Shown here piece after piece: positions 6,577-19,222 of a DNA stretch of 43,817 bases. The position numbers and the translations under genes were made by a program. The stretch is from Fimbriiglobus sp. (GTDB lineage Bacteria > Planctomycetota > Planctomycetia > Gemmatales > Gemmataceae). The notes under the pieces were generated by a model. It did no database searches, was not told the origin of the DNA, and was given only the letters and a program-made list of their open reading frames with translations. How positions within the stretch are numbered: the stretch's first letter is position 1; each line of letters starts with the position of its first letter. The stretch spans positions 1-43,817 of the forward strand of contig JANXWE010000084.1 in NCBI GenBank assembly GCA_025351325.1, in the 5' to 3' direction.

Positions 6577-8016
6577 TTACACTTCCGGCATGATGTACTT
6601 GCGGAGCACCGAGTAGTACGCTTCGCAGCGTTCGAGCCACAAGCCGGGGTCGCTGGGCATGTACATTTTCATCGGTCGGAAATCGACGATCACCGCCACG
6701 CGGTTCGCATCGATCTTGTTCATTTTCAACGACACTTCAATCGGTTCCCGGCCTCGCCCGATGGAACGCCACGACCCGGACAGGAACGAAAAGACCCCAC
6801 TGCGGCCGGCCGGATCTTTCCAGCCCGGGGGCAGTTCGAGCCGGACGCGGATCAGGCCCGGCTCGTTTTCGACGACTTGCCCCTGCACCTCTTCGATAAA
6901 GCCCCGGAGTTTGATCGCAGCCAGTTTTTCGGGCAAGCACGCTTCCAGCGTGTCCGACAAAATAAATCGGTCGTCGATGTCGTCGACCGGCGTCGACGAC
7001 ATCGCGGAGACCTGAATCTGCGTCGGCTCGGGTGGCGTGTAATCGGCGGGTTTACTCGCATCCCAGCAATCCCAGCCGACGCCGCGCGAGAACTGATCGC
7101 ACAGCTCTTTCATGTTCTGGTGGCGTTCGCTCGGATATTTCAACAGCGCGATTTGCACGGCCGCTTCCACCACGGCCGGGATGTGACCGGCGCCGACGCG
7201 GTTGAACCTGGGCGGCGCGTCGCGGACGTGGGCGGTGAGCAGCTTCTGTTGATCTTCGTAGTCGAACGGCAACCGGCCGGTCAGCAGTTCGTAGAGCATC
7301 ACCCCGACGCTGTAAATATCGGCGCGGGCGTCGGTGCTGTCGCCCCGGATCATCTCGGGGCTGACGTACGCCGGGGTTCCGCAGGCGAAGATCGGCCCTT
7401 GGCCGGTGAGTTCCGCCAACTGAATATGAGGCTTCGCCGAGAACCCGGCGAAGCCGAAGTCCATGACGCGGATCGATTCTTTGTCGGTACCGTGATCCAA
7501 GACCATCAAGTTGGCGGGCTTCAAATCGCGGTGGACGATACCCCCGAGTTGGGCGGCGTACAGGGCGTGGGCCAGTGGCCCGAGGAGCAGCCCGACCCGA
7601 TCATGGTGCAAAATGCGGTCGCGCTGCAACACGGCTTCCAGGGTGATGCCCGGGATGTACTCGAGCACGAGGCACGACCCGAGCGGGTCGTCGAGCGAGG
7701 CGTCGAGGAGTCGAACCACATAGGGATGTTGGAAGCCGAGCATCGACTGGACTTCGGCTTCGAAGAATTGGCGGAACCGCGGGGCGATGGTCGCCTCGTC
7801 TTTGATCCGCTTGACGACGACGCGGGAATTCGGATCGGTCGTCGATTGGGCCAGGAAGACGTGCGCATTGCTCCCCTCGCCGAGATACTTCCGGACGCGG
7901 TACTTGCCGAGGAACGTCTGCCCGATGTAGGCATCCGCATCGTGGCGCGGTAGTGCCGCCGTGAGTACGATCGGCGTTTCTTCAACCCGTTTGGCGGACG
8001 ACCCGAAAAGCCGCAT
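6577..8016 (-). CDS. Soluble serine/threonine protein kinase
   Basis: This 479-residue protein has a complete Hanks-type kinase domain at about residues 35-300: glycine loop LGEGSNAHVFLA, VVVKRIK with the ATP-binding Lys, HRDLKPANLM near 159, DFG near 184, a GTPAYVSPEMI activation segment and DIYSVGVMLYELLTGRLPF. No membrane helix is visible, so unlike many PknB-like kinases it should be cytosolic. The last 170 or so residues form an unrecognised domain with alternating strands (VRLELPPGW, VSLKMNKIDANRVAVIVDF). ATG 8016 was chosen because GAGG sits nine bases upstream; the TTG at 8031 would overlap that ribosome site. Targets are not apparent from the neighbours. Confidence 0.9.
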   Translation of the reverse strand: MRLFGSSAKRVEETPIVLTAALPRHDADAYIGQTFLGKYRVRKYLGEGSNAHVFLAQSTTDPNSRVVVKRIKDEATIAPRFRQFFEAEVQSMLGFQHPYVVRLLDASLDDPLGSCLVLEYIPGITLEAVLQRDRILHHDRVGLLLGPLAHALYAAQLGGIVHRDLKPANLMVLDHGTDKESIRVMDFGFAGFSAKPHIQLAELTGQGPIFACGTPAYVSPEMIRGDSTDARADIYSVGVMLYELLTGRLPFDYEDQQKLLTAHVRDAPPRFNRVGAGHIPAVVEAAVQIALLKYPSERHQNMKELCDQFSRGVGWDCWDASKPADYTPPEPTQIQVSAMSSTPVDDIDDRFILSDTLEACLPEKLAAIKLRGFIEEVQGQVVENEPGLIRVRLELPPGWKDPAGRSGVFSFLSGSWRSIGRGREPIEVSLKMNKIDANRVAVIVDFRPMKMYMPSDPGLWLERCEAYYSVLRKYIMPEV

Positions 8017-10640: not shown

Positions 10641-10716
10641 GGCGAGCCGGTTCAGCGTGAGCTGCCGGATTCTAGATTGCTCAGAAGACTCCGACCCCTC
10701 ACGGGGCCGGCTCGCC
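10641..10716. repeat. Inverted repeat GGCGAGCCGG/CCGGCTCGCC
   Basis: A perfect ten-base inverted repeat (10641-10650 and 10707-10716) lies in the 220-base gap between two divergent genes. The interval also holds GTGAGCTGCCGG. It resembles dispersed intergenic palindromes rather than a terminator, because both neighbours start here. Confidence 0.5.
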
Positions 10717-10785: not shown

Positions 10786-11478
10786 ATGTTCTTCTCCCTG
10801 TGTGTGGCGTTGGTCATCGGCGCGGAACCGGCCGAGGCACCCAAGAGCGGCAAAGAGGCGCTGCAACCGTTCAACGGCTTAATCGCCGCTTGGAAGGGCA
10901 CCGGCTTCCCGGACGGCACCCGCGAGGAACGGGCCAAGGGCTTCTGGGTCGAGAAGATTGATTGGGCCTGGAGTTTCCAAGGCGACGACGGTTGGCTGAA
11001 GCTGACCATCGCCGAGGGCAAGCATTTTCAAGGCGGGGAACTCCGGTACCTGCCCAAGACCGCCGACTACGAATTGAAACTGACGAAGACTGACAAAACG
11101 GAACAGACATTCGTGGGCAAGTGGAGCACCGGCAAACAAAAAGAGCAAATTCTCGTGCTGGAATGCGGCACCCAAACCGAAACGCAACAACTCACCTTCA
11201 CGCTGCTGCACAGCAACCGCTACCTCTACCAACTGGCGACGAAACCCAAAAACGCCAAGGCGTTCACGCGGCTCTGGCAAGTCGGGGCGACGAAAGAGGG
11301 CGAGCCGTTCGCCGAAGTCAACAAAGGCCCGGAGTGCATCGTCACCGGTGGCCGTGGCACGATGAGCGTGAGCTTCCAAGGGACGACCTACTACGTCTGC
11401 TGTTCCGGCTGCAAAGATGAGTTCAACGCCGAACCGGAAAAGTACATCCGGCTCGCCGCCGAGAAGAAAAAGAAGTGA
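10786..11478 (+). CDS. Exported protein with C-terminal YHS/TRASH-like metal domain
   Basis: This 230-residue protein opens with a short signal-like segment (MFFSLCVALVIGAEPAEA). The middle, about residues 30-170, is a beta-rich part without a recognised family (GELRYLPKTADYELKL, QQLTFTLLHSNRYLYQ). The last 45 residues have the TRASH/YHS pattern YYVCCSGCKDEFNAEPEKYI, where the Cys pair is expected to bind a metal, as in copper or mercury-handling proteins. The protein probably works outside the cytoplasm, but the metal and partner are unknown. Its stop overlaps an upstream in-frame region of the next gene and lies about 70 bases before its chosen start, so the two may be co-transcribed. Confidence 0.75.
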   Translation: MFFSLCVALVIGAEPAEAPKSGKEALQPFNGLIAAWKGTGFPDGTREERAKGFWVEKIDWAWSFQGDDGWLKLTIAEGKHFQGGELRYLPKTADYELKLTKTDKTEQTFVGKWSTGKQKEQILVLECGTQTETQQLTFTLLHSNRYLYQLATKPKNAKAFTRLWQVGATKEGEPFAEVNKGPECIVTGGRGTMSVSFQGTTYYVCCSGCKDEFNAEPEKYIRLAAEKKKK

Positions 11479-11546
11479 TGGACGAATGGATCGCCTCCGG
11501 ACTATCAATCGCACACTGCTGCAAATACCGTGTGCGGAGTTCCCCG

Positions 11547-12791
11547 ATGCGACTCAACCTCGGACTGGTCGTACTCCTGGCGTGCGGCTATGCCAACGCC
11601 ATCGAGGCCCCGAATTGGGCGCAGTATGGTGGCCCCAAGCGGGATTTCAGCCTCCCGGCTCCGGCGAGCATCGGAAAAGGTGAGGATCGCCTCTGGCGCC
11701 GCGATCTCGGCCCGGGCACCTCGGGCATCGTCTGCGACGGCACTTCACTCTTCACGATGTACTCGATCCCCGATTCCAAGAACGTGTCCGCCGGGCAAGA
11801 AGTCGTCGTGGCCCTCGACCCCCAAACGGGCAAGACCCTGTGGGAGTTGTCATACCCCGTTGCCCGACTGAAAGGGCAGGAATCGTTCAGCGGGGAGCCG
11901 ATCCGGCCGCTGTCGACCCCGGCACTCATCGGCGCGCGGTTGTGTACGCTCGGCTACACCGGACTGCTGAAATGTTTCGACCCCTCCACCGGGAAAGTCA
12001 TCTGGGAATACGACTTGGTGAAGGAGTTCGAGGCGACGCCCGTGCAGTTCGGCTTCGCGTCCAGCCCGCTGGTGACGGACGGTCGGTTCGTCGTCCACGT
12101 CGGTGGCAAACAGACGATCTTGGTGGCGTTCGATCCGAAAGACGGCAAGGTCGTCTGGAAGTCTAAAGGGGGCGAACCGAGTTACGCCTCGCCCGTCGTG
12201 ATGCCTGCAAAAGATGGTGATACCATTGTCCAAGTGACACGCGATGCGATCTTCGGGTTGTCGGCGAAAGACGGCCAAGAGCGTTGGAAGTACCCGATGC
12301 CCAAGCCATTATTCACGAACGTGCCCACGCCGATCATCCTGCCGAAACAACAGTTGCTGGTGTCCGGTCAAGGGTTGAAAGGAACCCGGCTGCTCGAAGT
12401 CGCCGAAACGGGTGATCGGGTCACGGAAGTTTGGAAGAACGAAAAATCGACTTTCTTCGCCACGAACTGGCTGGCCGATGACGACGCCGTGTACGGGATC
12501 GCCGACAAGTTTTTCGTCGCCTTGAGTTTGACCGACGGCAAAGAACTCTGGCGTGATCGTACCCAATCGGACGCCAATTGTATCCGTGTCGGCCCCGATG
12601 CGCTCGTGTTGCGTGGTGATGGTCGACTCAGCCGTTGCAAGCTGTCGCGCACGGGGTTGGAACCGAACGGGAACTTCGAACTGCTGAGCGGTCGCTGTTG
12701 GATGGCCCCGACCGTCCAAGGGGAAATGTTGTACGCCCGCTCCGAGAAAGAAATCACTGCCATCCCGTTGTCCGCGATCCTCAAGCCGTAA
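11547..12791 (+). CDS. Exported PQQ-like beta-propeller protein
   Basis: The 414-residue product has a signal peptide (MRLNLGLVVLLACGYANA) and then repeated blades of the PQQ-repeat type: VVALDPQTGKTLWELSYP, LKCFDPSTGKVIWEYDLV, LVAFDPKDGKVVWKSKGG, GLSAKDGQERWKYPMP and VALSLTDGKELWRDRT. Such eight-blade propellers serve as scaffolds, for example in BamB-like outer-membrane assembly factors, or as enzyme modules; no quinone-enzyme residues are visible, so a scaffold role is more likely. GGAG nine bases before ATG 11547 supports the start; the longer frame from 11475 overlaps the previous stop and lacks a good leader. Confidence 0.85.
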   Translation: MRLNLGLVVLLACGYANAIEAPNWAQYGGPKRDFSLPAPASIGKGEDRLWRRDLGPGTSGIVCDGTSLFTMYSIPDSKNVSAGQEVVVALDPQTGKTLWELSYPVARLKGQESFSGEPIRPLSTPALIGARLCTLGYTGLLKCFDPSTGKVIWEYDLVKEFEATPVQFGFASSPLVTDGRFVVHVGGKQTILVAFDPKDGKVVWKSKGGEPSYASPVVMPAKDGDTIVQVTRDAIFGLSAKDGQERWKYPMPKPLFTNVPTPIILPKQQLLVSGQGLKGTRLLEVAETGDRVTEVWKNEKSTFFATNWLADDDAVYGIADKFFVALSLTDGKELWRDRTQSDANCIRVGPDALVLRGDGRLSRCKLSRTGLEPNGNFELLSGRCWMAPTVQGEMLYARSEKEITAIPLSAILKP

Positions 12792-12801
12792 CCGAGTCAC
12801 C

Positions 12802-13512
12802 ATGAGTCGGTTCGCGGGTGTGGATGGTTGCCCAGGCGGCTGGTTGTGCATTGTCTACGATCCCGCCACCGAACGATTCCGCGTCACCGTGTTTCGATCC
12901 GCCGACGAGATGCTGTCGCACGATTCGAAGATCAGCATGATGGCGATTGACATGCCGATCGGGTTGGCTGACGCGGGTCGGCGGCGATGCGATGAACTGG
13001 CCCGCAATCGATTGGGTTCCCGACACGTCTGCGTGATGAATGCCCCGATCCGACCGGCGCTGTACGCACCGTCCCGGTTGGCCGCGTCCGCCATCACGGA
13101 ACGAGCGACCGGCCGGCGTGTCGGCAGCAACGAATGGGCGCTCTACCCCAAGATCATCAATCTCGACATCGCCATTTCCCCCGCTCTGCAAACGCGCTGT
13201 GTCGAGATTCACCCGGAACTGGGATTCTCGGCTTGGAATGGTGGCGACGTGATTCCACTCTCGAAACAGACCCAATCCGGTCGGCAGGAGCGCGAACGGC
13301 TGATCGACACCACTTGGCCCGGGGCACGTTTGGACGTATTGGCGCAATTGAAGCGCCAAGGGCACAACCGCCAGCACGTGGCTTTGGACGACGTCAACGA
13401 TGCGTTTGCAGCCGTCTGGACGGCCTGCCGCATCGGTGCGGGTCAGGCGGAACGGTTGCCCGAAACGCCCGAGGTTGACTCTCGGGGCTTGCGAATGGAA
13501 ATTTGGTTCTGA
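12802..13512 (+). CDS. DUF429 protein (predicted RNase H-like nuclease)
   Basis: The 236-residue protein matches the DUF429 pattern: FAGVDGCPGGWLCIVYD at the N-terminus, MMAIDMPIGLADAGRRRCDELAR, then VEIHPELGFSAWNGG and a late LDDVNDAFAAVWTACRI with acidic residues. The acidic cluster (VDG, IDMPIGL, DD-ND) is placed as in RNase H-fold nucleases; the exact substrate is unknown. It starts ten bases after the propeller gene, so the two share a transcript. Directly downstream lies a decayed atpC fragment on the other strand. Confidence 0.85.
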   Translation: MSRFAGVDGCPGGWLCIVYDPATERFRVTVFRSADEMLSHDSKISMMAIDMPIGLADAGRRRCDELARNRLGSRHVCVMNAPIRPALYAPSRLAASAITERATGRRVGSNEWALYPKIINLDIAISPALQTRCVEIHPELGFSAWNGGDVIPLSKQTQSGRQERERLIDTTWPGARLDVLAQLKRQGHNRQHVALDDVNDAFAAVWTACRIGAGQAERLPETPEVDSRGLRMEIWF

Positions 13513-13513
13513 T

Positions 13514-13592
13514 TCAGACCGCCGGATTCTTACCGATCACTTTGGCCATACTTGGCTGCATCGGCCGCTTTCGCCGTGAGTACCGCGTTTAC
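13514..13592 (-). pseudogene. Relic of the 3' end of an atpC-like gene
   Basis: On the minus strand this stretch reads VNAVLTAKAADAAK, then, after a deletion with loss of frame, MAKVIGKNPAV and a TGA. The intact atpC at 15594-16013 ends with VNVLTAKAVDAAK and later MAKVIGKNPVA. The two regions of similarity are separated in atpC by about forty codons that are missing here. The last 26 bases before the stop differ from atpC by one base, while the upstream block is more divergent. The relic begins inside the lyase gene's stop codon and ends next to DUF429. Confidence 0.8.
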
Positions 13593-15457
13593 TTTTCTAC
13601 TTTCGCTCCGCTCGAATAGGTGGACCAACCGATCCAGCCCCCTTCTTTTTTGCTGTCCAATAAACGGGTGTCAGCGCCCTGTTGTTCGCGGACTTTGACG
13701 GGCCAGCAGTTGCCGCCGAAGCAGAGTTCGCGCAACCCTTGGACGGCCAGCGACGCATCAAGGACGTCGAACATTGGGCGTGTGTCGTTGTCCTTGACCC
13801 CCGGGCCGTAGTTGAAGGTGCCGTAGGCTTCGGTTCGCCCGGCTTTCTCGGTGCGAACGCGAACGCCTGTGCCTTCGAACTTCATCCCGAGAATCCAAAG
13901 TTCGGCCCCGGAGTTCACTACAAGGCCGGTGTCGCTGTCCCCTTCGGGGTTGAGTTGCCGGCACCACATTTTTTGCCCGGCTTTTCGGAGTTCCACTTTC
14001 GCCGGGCAATCGGTAGCGAAGATGTCGCCCGCCCCGGTGCCCAGAATCGTCACGCCGCAACTTTCGACCACGAGGGTCTTCTTGAGGGAGCGATTTTCCA
14101 GCACCACCGGTGTGCCGCCGAAGGAATCGATGTTTTGGAACTTCACGACGGCGGCCGAGTCATCGGTGATGACAAACCTCCCCTGTTTTCCACCGAGGAT
14201 TCTCGCCCAACCAAGTCCCAAAATATGCTTCACCGAGCCGTGGACTTTAATTTCCCCATCGACTTTGAACCAATTCGGGTCGCCGCCGCCGCAACCGCGG
14301 AAGTAAACGGTGGTCTTTCCCGTCTTCGCCGCAGCGTCGATTGCTTTTTGGATCGCTTCGGTGTCGTCCTTGTTGTCGCCGGCTTTGGCTCCGAAGTCGT
14401 CGGCGCATACCCAATTTGCGGGGTCGGTCTCCCACGCTCCGGCCGGCTCCCGACGGATCTCGAGCGACTTCGTGTCCTTCGCGGGATCGAACAGTTTTTT
14501 GATCCCGTGCGACGTGTACTCGGCAACGTCCGCCGTCGTCACGTTCCCGCCCGGCCAGCCGCTTGTGATAGCCATCTTGAAGCCTGTCGACTTCACGTTT
14601 CGGGCGTACAAGATGCCGTCGTTTTGGATCGCGGGCAGTTTGGGATCACCGCCGCTGAATTTCCCGCCGACGAGGGCCACGACGCCGGCCCAATGGCCCC
14701 AATCGTTCGGCATTTGCACGTGGATCGCCAGCGGGGTGTCTTCCACGACGAGGTCTTCGACCGCGACGACGTTCGCCGAGACGACCAAACCGACCTTCCG
14801 GCATTTCTTGACCGTGATCCGCGACAGTGTTTGTCCCCAAATCCACTGGGAAAGCACGCCGGTTTCAAAGCCTTCCACGACGACATCTTGGGCGAGGTTC
14901 GGCCCGCTTTGATCGAGGAACCCGGCGTTCAGGCCGACCTTGCCGTTGCCTATGATGCGGACGTTTTGCAAGATGCCGGAGTTGGTCGCATAGTAGCGGA
15001 TGCCGTCGGCCTCCGGGTTATCCCCGGCGTCGAGAGTCAGATTGCGAATATTTCGCATGAACCAATCGGCCGACGTCTTGCCCTTTTCGAGCGGATGCAT
15101 CCGGATCACGCAAGTCACCCCTTTGGAAGCATCCGCCAAACGGATCACGGTTCCATCGCGGCTCTCGCCGTAAAGCCACGGCCCGAGGGCCTTCTTCACG
15201 ACTAGGGTTTTGCTGATTTTGTACGTCCCGTTCGGGAGGAAGAACGCTTTCGTCTTTTGGCCCTCGGCCCCGCAGCTGAGGTCAATCCCTTTTTGCAGGG
15301 CCTCCGTGTCGTCGGTTTTGCCATCCCCCTTCGCCCCGAGATCCTTTCTGGCGTCGATGACACTCGGATCGGCCGGAAAGGCAATCCGGAGCGGTTCCGC
15401 CGCAAGTCCCCGGCCGGCGATGAGGACGAAAAGAAGTGCGACCTGGCGAAAAGGCAT
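13589..15457 (-). CDS. Secreted pectate-lyase-fold (right-handed beta-helix) protein
   Basis: This 622-residue protein has a signal peptide (MPFRQVALLFVLIAGRGLAA) and two copies of the Pectate_lyase_3 entry motif: RKDLGAKGDGKTDDTEALQK near residue 45 and DDFGAKAGDNKDDTEAIQKA near residue 370, each followed by strands typical of beta-helix proteins (LDAGDNPEADGIRYY, VVVEGFETGVLSQWIWG). Such proteins cleave or bind acidic polysaccharides outside the cell; no catalytic residues can be assigned by eye. GGAG seven bases upstream supports ATG 15457; the longer frame adds a stretch that looks untranslated. The gene sits just downstream of atpC on the same strand, separated by a terminator, and is followed by an atpC relic, which suggests that it arrived there by recombination. 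Confidence 0.75.
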   Translation of the reverse strand: MPFRQVALLFVLIAGRGLAAEPLRIAFPADPSVIDARKDLGAKGDGKTDDTEALQKGIDLSCGAEGQKTKAFFLPNGTYKISKTLVVKKALGPWLYGESRDGTVIRLADASKGVTCVIRMHPLEKGKTSADWFMRNIRNLTLDAGDNPEADGIRYYATNSGILQNVRIIGNGKVGLNAGFLDQSGPNLAQDVVVEGFETGVLSQWIWGQTLSRITVKKCRKVGLVVSANVVAVEDLVVEDTPLAIHVQMPNDWGHWAGVVALVGGKFSGGDPKLPAIQNDGILYARNVKSTGFKMAITSGWPGGNVTTADVAEYTSHGIKKLFDPAKDTKSLEIRREPAGAWETDPANWVCADDFGAKAGDNKDDTEAIQKAIDAAAKTGKTTVYFRGCGGGDPNWFKVDGEIKVHGSVKHILGLGWARILGGKQGRFVITDDSAAVVKFQNIDSFGGTPVVLENRSLKKTLVVESCGVTILGTGAGDIFATDCPAKVELRKAGQKMWCRQLNPEGDSDTGLVVNSGAELWILGMKFEGTGVRVRTEKAGRTEAYGTFNYGPGVKDNDTRPMFDVLDASLAVQGLRELCFGGNCWPVKVREQQGADTRLLDSKKEGGWIGWSTYSSGAKVEK

Positions 15458-15539: not shown

Positions 15540-15569
15540 AAAAAAGCGACCGGGATCGCTCCGGATCGC
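15540..15569 (-). terminator. Rho-independent terminator of the atp operon
   Basis: On the minus strand a GC-rich stem (GCGA plus CCGG, with one bulged T, pairing to CCGG and TCGC) with a seven-base loop is followed by six U. It starts 24 bases after the atpC stop, in the right place to end the atp transcript before the lyase gene. Confidence 0.7.
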
Positions 15570-15593: not shown

Positions 15594-16013
15594 TCACGCG
15601 ACTGGATTCTTGCCGATCACTTTGGCCATCCCCTGGGCGCGGGCGATAGCCTTGTTGCGGTTCTCGCGTTCGATGCCGTTGGTCGCGGGCAGGGCGTCCG
15701 CTTCGGTGCGGGCCGTGGTCGCCACGACCGGCGTCAGCTTGGCGGCATCGACGGCTTTCGCAGTCAGCACGTTCACGACCCCGCCGGCAACTTGCACGAA
15801 CCCACCGTCGATGTAATACCGCTTCACGTCGGTACCCGTGGTGATGCGCAATTCCCCGGCCGCGAGTTGGCCGACGAACGCGCTGTGCCCCGGCAGCACT
15901 CCGAGTTCGCCGTCGTACATCGGCAGCACGACGGCGTTCGCCGGTGCGTCCAGTTCGGCCCGCTCCGGGGTAACGACGACGATGCGGAGCGTTTTGGTGG
16001 TGAGTTCGGCCAT
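15594..16013 (-). CDS. atpC: ATP synthase F1 epsilon subunit
   Basis: The 139-residue epsilon subunit sits on the F1 central stalk and regulates ATP hydrolysis. The N-terminal beta-sandwich is clear: IVVVTPERAELDAPANAVVL, YDGELGVLPGHSAFV, GELRI and the YYIDGGFVQVAGGVVNVL strand. The C-terminal helix pair follows (ENRNKAIARAQGMAKVIG). It is the last gene of the atp operon; a palindromic element separates it from atpD and a terminator follows it. Confidence 0.95.
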   Translation of the reverse strand: MAELTTKTLRIVVVTPERAELDAPANAVVLPMYDGELGVLPGHSAFVGQLAAGELRITTGTDVKRYYIDGGFVQVAGGVVNVLTAKAVDAAKLTPVVATTARTEADALPATNGIERENRNKAIARAQGMAKVIGKNPVA

Positions 16014-16018
16014 GGGTC

Positions 16019-16102
16019 AGTTCCAGGTTCCAAGTTCCAAGTTCCAGTTAAAAACCAAGAACCCGATTCCAAACTTGGAATCTGGAACTTGGAACCTGGA
16101 AC

Positions 16103-16103
<1 letters not shown>
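16019..16103. repeat. Inverted repeat between atpD and atpC (TTCCAGGTTCCAAG family)
   Basis: Bases 16019-16039 and 16083-16103 are a perfect 21-base inverted repeat around a 43-base loop that contains further TTCCAA copies. The right arm touches the atpD stop codon. The same motif is repeated inside the left arm (TTCCAAGTTCCAG). It could form a hairpin in the atp message between the last two genes. Confidence 0.75.
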
Positions 16104-17590
<1,487 letters not shown>

Positions 17591-17593
17591 TCA

Positions 17594-17674
17594 ACGAGCC
17601 ACCGGGCTTGCCCCGGTGGAAGGAGGAACGGAGAGGGCGGGCAGTCCGCCACCGGGGCAAGCCCGGTGGCTCGT
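17594..17674. repeat. Perfect 26-base hairpin between atpG and atpD
   Basis: Bases 17594-17619 (core GAGCCACCGGGCTTGCC) pair without mismatch with 17649-17674 across a 29-base loop. It lies between two co-transcribed genes, so it is unlikely to be a full terminator and looks like an inserted dispersed palindrome. Confidence 0.85.
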
Positions 17675-17692
17675 CGGCCGATCCCCGCATTC

Positions 17693-18623: not shown

Positions 18624-18956
18624 TCAAGAGACCGTCGTGATTGATCCGAGAAACCGGAGTTCAACCGCGGGCAATTCGATCACACGATGTTTCGCTTCGT
18701 CCAATTTCACACAAAGCGAGCCTGGAACGGCACGGCTAACCCCGAGTACAGTCCCACGCTGTCCAGATGCGAGTTCCGTCTCAGGGTGATCCACCAAAAC
18801 CTCAACAATGGCCCCATTCAGATGACGGAGTCGCTCTGTCGCTTCGAGATCCGTCCAACCGGTCACTGGATCGCGGACAATCCATCGTTCATAGGATTCG
18901 GCGATTTCTTCATCGGCAGCTTGGACTTCCGCCGAACGAGTATCGGTTCGATTCAT
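18624..18956 (-). CDS. DUF4926-like small protein (possible antitoxin partner) inside the atp operon
   Basis: The 110-residue product has an acidic N-terminal half (AADEEIAESYERW) and a C-terminal half that resembles DUF4926 modules, with NGAIVEVLVDHPETELASGQ then RGTVLGV and a final VELRFLG strand. DUF4926 proteins are small and often adjacent to toxin-like genes, but the function here is not known. ATG 18956 was chosen because the longer frame would run into the preceding gene. The gene lies 23 bases after the BrnT-like gene and 31 before atpG, all on the minus strand, so it is carried by the atp message. Confidence 0.6.
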   Translation of the reverse strand: MNRTDTRSAEVQAADEEIAESYERWIVRDPVTGWTDLEATERLRHLNGAIVEVLVDHPETELASGQRGTVLGVSRAVPGSLCVKLDEAKHRVIELPAVELRFLGSITTVS

Positions 18957-18979
18957 GACATTCCTTGCAAGTGCGGTGC

Positions 18980-19222
18980 TCAGTAGGCCGTGATGACGAA
19001 CGCTTTTTGCTCGCCGTCCCAATCCACATCATATCTCCAGATGATCCGAATCGGTCGCCCGTTCGGGCATTGGCCCAAACTCTCGAAGTATTCTCCGTTT
19101 ACGGGATGGTGCCCGGTCAAATCAACTTTTCCCGTCCTCAACGCGTGTTCAACCTCGGTTTCGGAAAGATTGTGTCGAGCGATCTTGGAACGGTTCCAAT
19201 CGATCCAGATAAACTCGATCAT
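18980..19222 (-). CDS. BrnT-like small protein (RelE-fold toxin type) inside the atp operon
   Basis: The 80-residue product starts IEFIWIDWNRSKIARHNLSE, the W-x-x-x-K...H pattern of BrnT-like ribonuclease toxins, and ends in IRIIWRYDVDWDGEQKAFVI, the last strand of that fold. The usual tail after VITA (arginine-rich) is missing, so the protein may be weakened or differently used. It starts 14 bases downstream of the atpA stop on the same strand. Toxin activity is an inference from fold-level likeness only; a neutral remnant is possible. Confidence 0.6.
   Translation of the reverse strand: MIEFIWIDWNRSKIARHNLSETEVEHALRTGKVDLTGHHPVNGEYFESLGQCPNGRPIRIIWRYDVDWDGEQKAFVITAY

Follow-up and report, generated by a model that had tools for sequence, protein, structure and literature searches.

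How does a core housekeeping gene come to have a second tail, stranded beyond an unrelated gene? The question is raised by the 3′ flank of the ATP synthase operon in Fimbriiglobus sp. (Gemmataceae; contig JANXWE010000084.1), analysed here as a window of 43,817 nucleotides. On the minus strand, 79 bases (13592–13514) make up a decayed atpC 3′ end, comprising codons 80–92 followed by codon 129 to the stop, with the intervening 108 nt lost; the first 79 codons are absent, as read from the present-day locus alone. A lyase-like gene ends on one side of the relic and, convergent with it, a gene for a DUF429 protein on the other; of the 76 bases from one stop to the other, 75 belong to the relic, which also includes the final four bases of the lyase gene and overlaps that gene's stop codon. 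Both neighbours keep natural C-termini and are intact to their stops.

A sequence-only reading of this DNA had reported two separated pieces of an atpC 3′ end at minus 13514–13592 and an intact atpC ending at 15594 beyond the lyase gene; the pieces are present and these coordinates are right (Table 1). It had also described a common 26-base stretch before the stop with one mismatch, and a more diverged upstream piece with one extra codon, and both descriptions hold. Relic bases 13549–13524 equal bases 15629–15604 of the intact gene at 25/26 positions, and 13583–13551 equal atpC codons 82–92 at 27/33; GTA-AAC (codons 80–81) and the extra codon GCG take the upstream piece to 13592, this short extension being less secure. 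The C-terminal residues read N-P-A-V-stop in the relic against N-P-V-A-stop in the resident gene.

Table 1. Features of the atpC 3′ flank, with positions counted from the first base of the window.
Feature	Position	Strand	Evidence or remark
PQQ-repeat protein gene	11475–12791	plus	best relative 55%, in G012, among 21 genomes searched
DUF429 gene, convergent, natural C-terminus	12802–13512	plus	PF04250, E 7.8e-48; stop one base from relic stop
Relic TGA	13514–13516	minus	stop at homologous codon of intact atpC
Relic piece A, atpC codons 129 to stop (ATG..TGA)	13514–13549	minus	25/26 bases match over 13524–13549
Single T replacing 108 nt of atpC (internal deletion in relic)	13550	minus	alignment to intact atpC
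Relic piece B, atpC codons 80–92 plus one extra codon	13551–13592	minus	secure part 13551–13583
Lyase-like gene, right-handed beta-helix type	13589–15457, or to 15496	minus	PF12708, E 7.2e-28, two matched stretches
Terminator-like hairpin and T-run directly 3′ of intact atpC	15543–15562	minus	pattern scan, fold
Intact atpC, ATP synthase epsilon subunit, 139 aa	15594–16013	minus	PF02823, E 5.5e-19

The relic is a real atpC remnant. Its two-segment score of 44 was reached by none of 2000 dinucleotide-preserving shuffles (best 25), confirming the excess of similarity over shuffled sequence whose absence the earlier reading would have taken as a refutation, nor was it reached by any of 2152 control 79-mers, for which both strands of the window were used (best 28). 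The 26-base match by itself is weaker evidence and would not convince: in a search of the whole genome it shares its E value of 1.5e-4 with another atpC-like match, on contig C333, which is taken as chance because its reading frame is a different one. The case for the relic is made by the second colinear piece, the identical strand, the position 2 kb from atpC and the common stop. Chance similarity, for which the equal-E rival of the 26-base match might be pleaded, faces the combined score that no shuffle or control stretch attained, and its probability is negligible. A small palindrome at 13507–13520 holds the stops of both DUF429 and the relic, with one base between the two gene ends. A folded element or shared terminator of the two convergent genes was considered as an identity for the relic and rejected, as 13505–13600 folds no better than shuffles (z 0.08 on the minus and -0.17 on the plus strand).

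Relic and resident atpC differ at 13/75 aligned bases, with 0, 3 and 10 differences at first, second and third codon positions (third-position excess, P 0.0016; with the ends left out 0, 1 and 7, P 0.0026), a pattern that rules out a recent duplicate of the resident gene. At the same 75 sites the resident gene likewise shows 13 differences from atpC of the nearest congener, G002 (1, 2 and 10 by codon position), and the relic shows 15 from G002. Since both the amount of difference and the codon pattern equal those between the resident and G002 genes, the relic most likely diverged under selection as the protein-coding atpC of a separate lineage, to roughly the extent seen between two species of the genus. 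The sequence-only reading had raised the possibility of a closer affinity to another genus, which the data do not bear out: among the 95 family genomes the only credible matches besides the relic itself are the resident and G002 atpC genes, and the relic is therefore probably congeneric, a third lineage. The remaining matches, two stretches of 19–22 bases in G028 and G033 (E 0.004 and 0.009), are at chance level over 95 genomes, and near that in G028 there was no ORF of at least 150 aa resembling an atp gene. Exact placement of the relic relative to the resident and G002 genes is limited by its approximately 25 remaining codons.

Divergence biased towards third positions would also be produced by an old tandem duplication of atpC, in which both copies remained coding for a time before the distal one was broken by the lyase gene, or rearranged, and decayed. 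Such a history suits the common strand and order of the two copies and dispenses with a donor atpC; against it, each of the three congeners gives a single atpC match, and a second match was found in only 3/59 genomes searched (G018, G038 and G042), in each case on another contig, which makes this history unlikely, if still a serious contender. An assembly chimera of two strains is another conceivable source of two atpC versions, the window being one contig of a 382-contig assembly. The longest exact word common to relic and atpC is, however, 17 nt, shorter than usual assembly overlaps, and the genes on either side run unbroken to their stops, so that a chimera is scarcely credible.

The intact atpC bears no mark of foreignness, because its identity to G002 (87% at the amino acid level; 81.3% for DNA over codons 9–140) is no lower than that of other window genes, whose longer matches lie at 80–88%. 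A search for atpD in G002 did not find it; the G002 contig begins inside atpC, near the site of a palindromic repeat. In the window this repeat lies between atpC and atpD (16019–16103; 28-nt arms, 93% complementary, GGAACTT-type units) and recurs in congener G003 as numerous scattered partial copies. Short stretches at 17591–17679, 7261–7344 and 10641–10716 have many dispersed matches in all three congeners (G001–G003) and represent genus-wide repeat families. Terminator-like patterns such as that 3′ of atpC occur at five sites in the region, compared with 3.5 expected from shuffles, and the hairpin energy is not unusual against shuffles.

The gene between the two atpC versions, which could start at ATG 15457 or GTG 15496, scores 98.3 bits against PF12708, the pectate-lyase-like beta-helix family (curated cut-off 27), and its sequence relatives in the PDB are a glucan 1,3-beta-glucosidase, a beta-1,3-glucanase and mannuronan 5-epimerases. 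Its distribution is patchy. Relatives at 55–66% amino acid identity occur in 4/94 other family genomes, and a further collection yielded them in Verrucomicrobiaceae (61%), Fimbriimonadaceae (58% and 53%), a Planctomycetota bin (54%) and an unclassified bacterium (54%). Among the three congeners only G003 has a close copy (55%), that of G001 being at 35%. In trees (a first of 21 rows, 17 of 79 loci plus four others, and a second of 10 rows), the window lyase pairs with a Gemmataceae lyase of another genus (L075; support 96/96). A sister relationship to the G003 lyase was rejected (p-AU 0.0003), this topology having been picked for testing after the first tree had been seen, and a single clade of all five Gemmataceae lyases was not rejected (p-AU 0.097). 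Transfer between phyla is accordingly suggested by the patchiness and unproven by the tree test.

No atp gene or DUF429 gene stood beside the lyase at the nine other places examined (11 loci, two places being represented twice; one contig of only 4.2 kb), as far as the available sequence extends. Searches of plasmids and phages gave only partial matches below 31% identity (one plasmid and two phage records). Foreign base composition is uninformative here, the GC (0.598) and GC3 (0.743) of the lyase falling within those of other non-atp genes of the window (GC3 0.722–0.817). On sequence comparison the gene looks horizontally acquired, and to that extent the proposal of an acquired island at 13.6–15.6 kb stands.

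As to its extent, the proposal was too narrow. The PQQ-repeat and DUF429 genes (11.5–13.5 kb) likewise lack a close match in the three congeners, so that the non-conserved stretch is, by sequence comparison, about 11.5–15.5 kb: the PQQ gene has no congener match above 41%, and DUF429 is present in 4/95 family genomes including this one and in 0/3 congeners. The C-terminal SRGLRMEI of DUF429 is common to the window gene and that of G059. Genomes with atpC directly beside DUF429, which the earlier reading had suggested looking for, were not found: DUF429 and atpD lie on different contigs in G059 and G098, and atpD was not found in G090. In 3/3 congeners the sequence 3′ of atpC contains neither lyase nor DUF429 within the limits of the contigs, which extend 339 bases beyond the match in G001 and further in the other two.

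Even the nearest congener does not keep the same gene order: its longer matches to 1–20 kb of the window (G002) are scattered over eight contigs at 80–88% DNA identity. In a genome so shuffled, a congeneric atpC fragment might have been captured as filler at a break, with the lyase arriving separately, and the PQQ and DUF429 genes, as further local additions, would agree with such a rearrangement scar. Random filler would, however, hardly be expected to lie near atpC, on the same strand, and with the true 3′ end and stop, and we regard this origin as distinctly improbable.

In our judgement, held with slightly more belief than doubt, most of an older atpC was replaced by a congeneric atpC together with the lyase gene, through recombination that was homologous towards the operon and illegitimate at the far end and left the old tail behind. 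Originally, an older atpC allele would have closed the locus. Incoming DNA of a related congeneric lineage, with an atpC of its own and the lyase behind it, would have recombined homologously with the atp operon on one side; its other side would have been joined without extended homology, placing the lyase 3′ end near codon 80 of the old atpC. The order would then have become new atpC, lyase, old atpC tail, DUF429, and the orphan tail, free of selection, may later have lost 108 nt and shifted frame. Two atpC lineages do lie at this one locus, in that order and with tight junctions, accompanied by a patchily distributed lyase. Entry of the lyase by homologous recombination at atpC, as the sequence-only reading had it, agrees with the different atpC lineage of the relic and the acquired look of the lyase; since the relic breaks off exactly at the lyase stop, homology on one side fits better than ordinary homologous recombination. 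Neither the old arrangement (atpC beside DUF429) nor a donor arrangement (atpC followed by lyase) was found among the 95 family genomes, three of them congeners, and we therefore infer, rather than observe, which atpC is the newcomer and which lineage the donor; the one-sided mechanism has the same standing.

Recombination of this kind has precedents. In homology-facilitated illegitimate recombination (HFIR), as set out in PMC3240628, one end of the incoming DNA is homologous and the other joins without homology, and insertion is coupled with deletion of resident sequence, averaging 1 kb each. The present locus resembles it in having two diverged versions of the same gene (13/75 differences, biased to third positions) separated by a non-homologous insert, the lyase, which is unlinked to atp genes at nine other places; 3–10 bp of microhomology at the illegitimate junction are a further hallmark of the process. 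HFIR is the most likely mechanism for the relic by analogy, not a proven one, and the case differs in that it is read from a scar in a Gemmataceae genome. For displaced genes, PMC5361080 invokes a mechanism with one homologous end, cites it for orphaned 3′ regions, and proposes the same displacement logic for Vibrio T6SS and Rhs loci. The likeness to such loci consists in a new gene version with its cargo upstream and the old 3′ part stranded downstream. The present case differs in that displacement would have affected a core housekeeping gene, for which a functional replacement is present; the tail left behind has decayed instead of being kept for function; and a beta-helix enzyme of polysaccharide type serves as cargo.

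Displaced gene ends are also typical of site-specific integrating elements, and integrative elements at the 3′ ends of conserved genes leave a partial second gene tail beyond the insert, just as a partial second atpC tail lies on the far side of the lyase. On such an account the 26-bp direct repeats (13524–13549 and 15604–15629, one mismatch, 2080 bases apart) would be attachment sites, the lyase the cargo of a mini-island, and the end of atpC restored upon integration. The lyase is, however, the only gene between the repeats, with no integrase, and the relic extends upstream of the would-be core repeat: an exchange within the repeat would not leave piece B there. Integration of this type is very improbable.

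Between atpA and atpG, a further pair of small overlapping ORFs lies on the minus strand (18624–19222). One, of 80 aa, matches DUF4258 (PF14076, E 2.5e-6) and, of 41 genomes searched, was found in this one only, the 40 others giving no match; the other, of 132 aa, has a sub-threshold match to DUF4926 (E 0.002). The atpA–atpG spacing in G001 and G003 is about 130 bases. Our guess is that the pair, inside a core operon, could be toxin–antitoxin-like. A broader reading, which we consider improbable, is that the F-type ATPase operon serves as a recurrent landing place, where atp homology would admit congeneric DNA and hitchhiking cargo would join illegitimately, making core replacement and accessory gain one event; were this true, the pair of small ORFs inserted between atpG and atpA would represent another load of this kind.

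The kind of event proposed is already known and no new mechanism is added. A literature search found no paper joining Gemmataceae, gene order and horizontal gene transfer. The atpC relic can still be read as a fossil of the way in which a planctomycete may, in a single step, swap a housekeeping gene and acquire an accessory enzyme. Scars of this kind easily escape notice, the stranded tail being too short for annotation, and this one suggests a simple search, for fragments of gene tails in the spaces beyond conserved operons, by which gene gain may be oriented.
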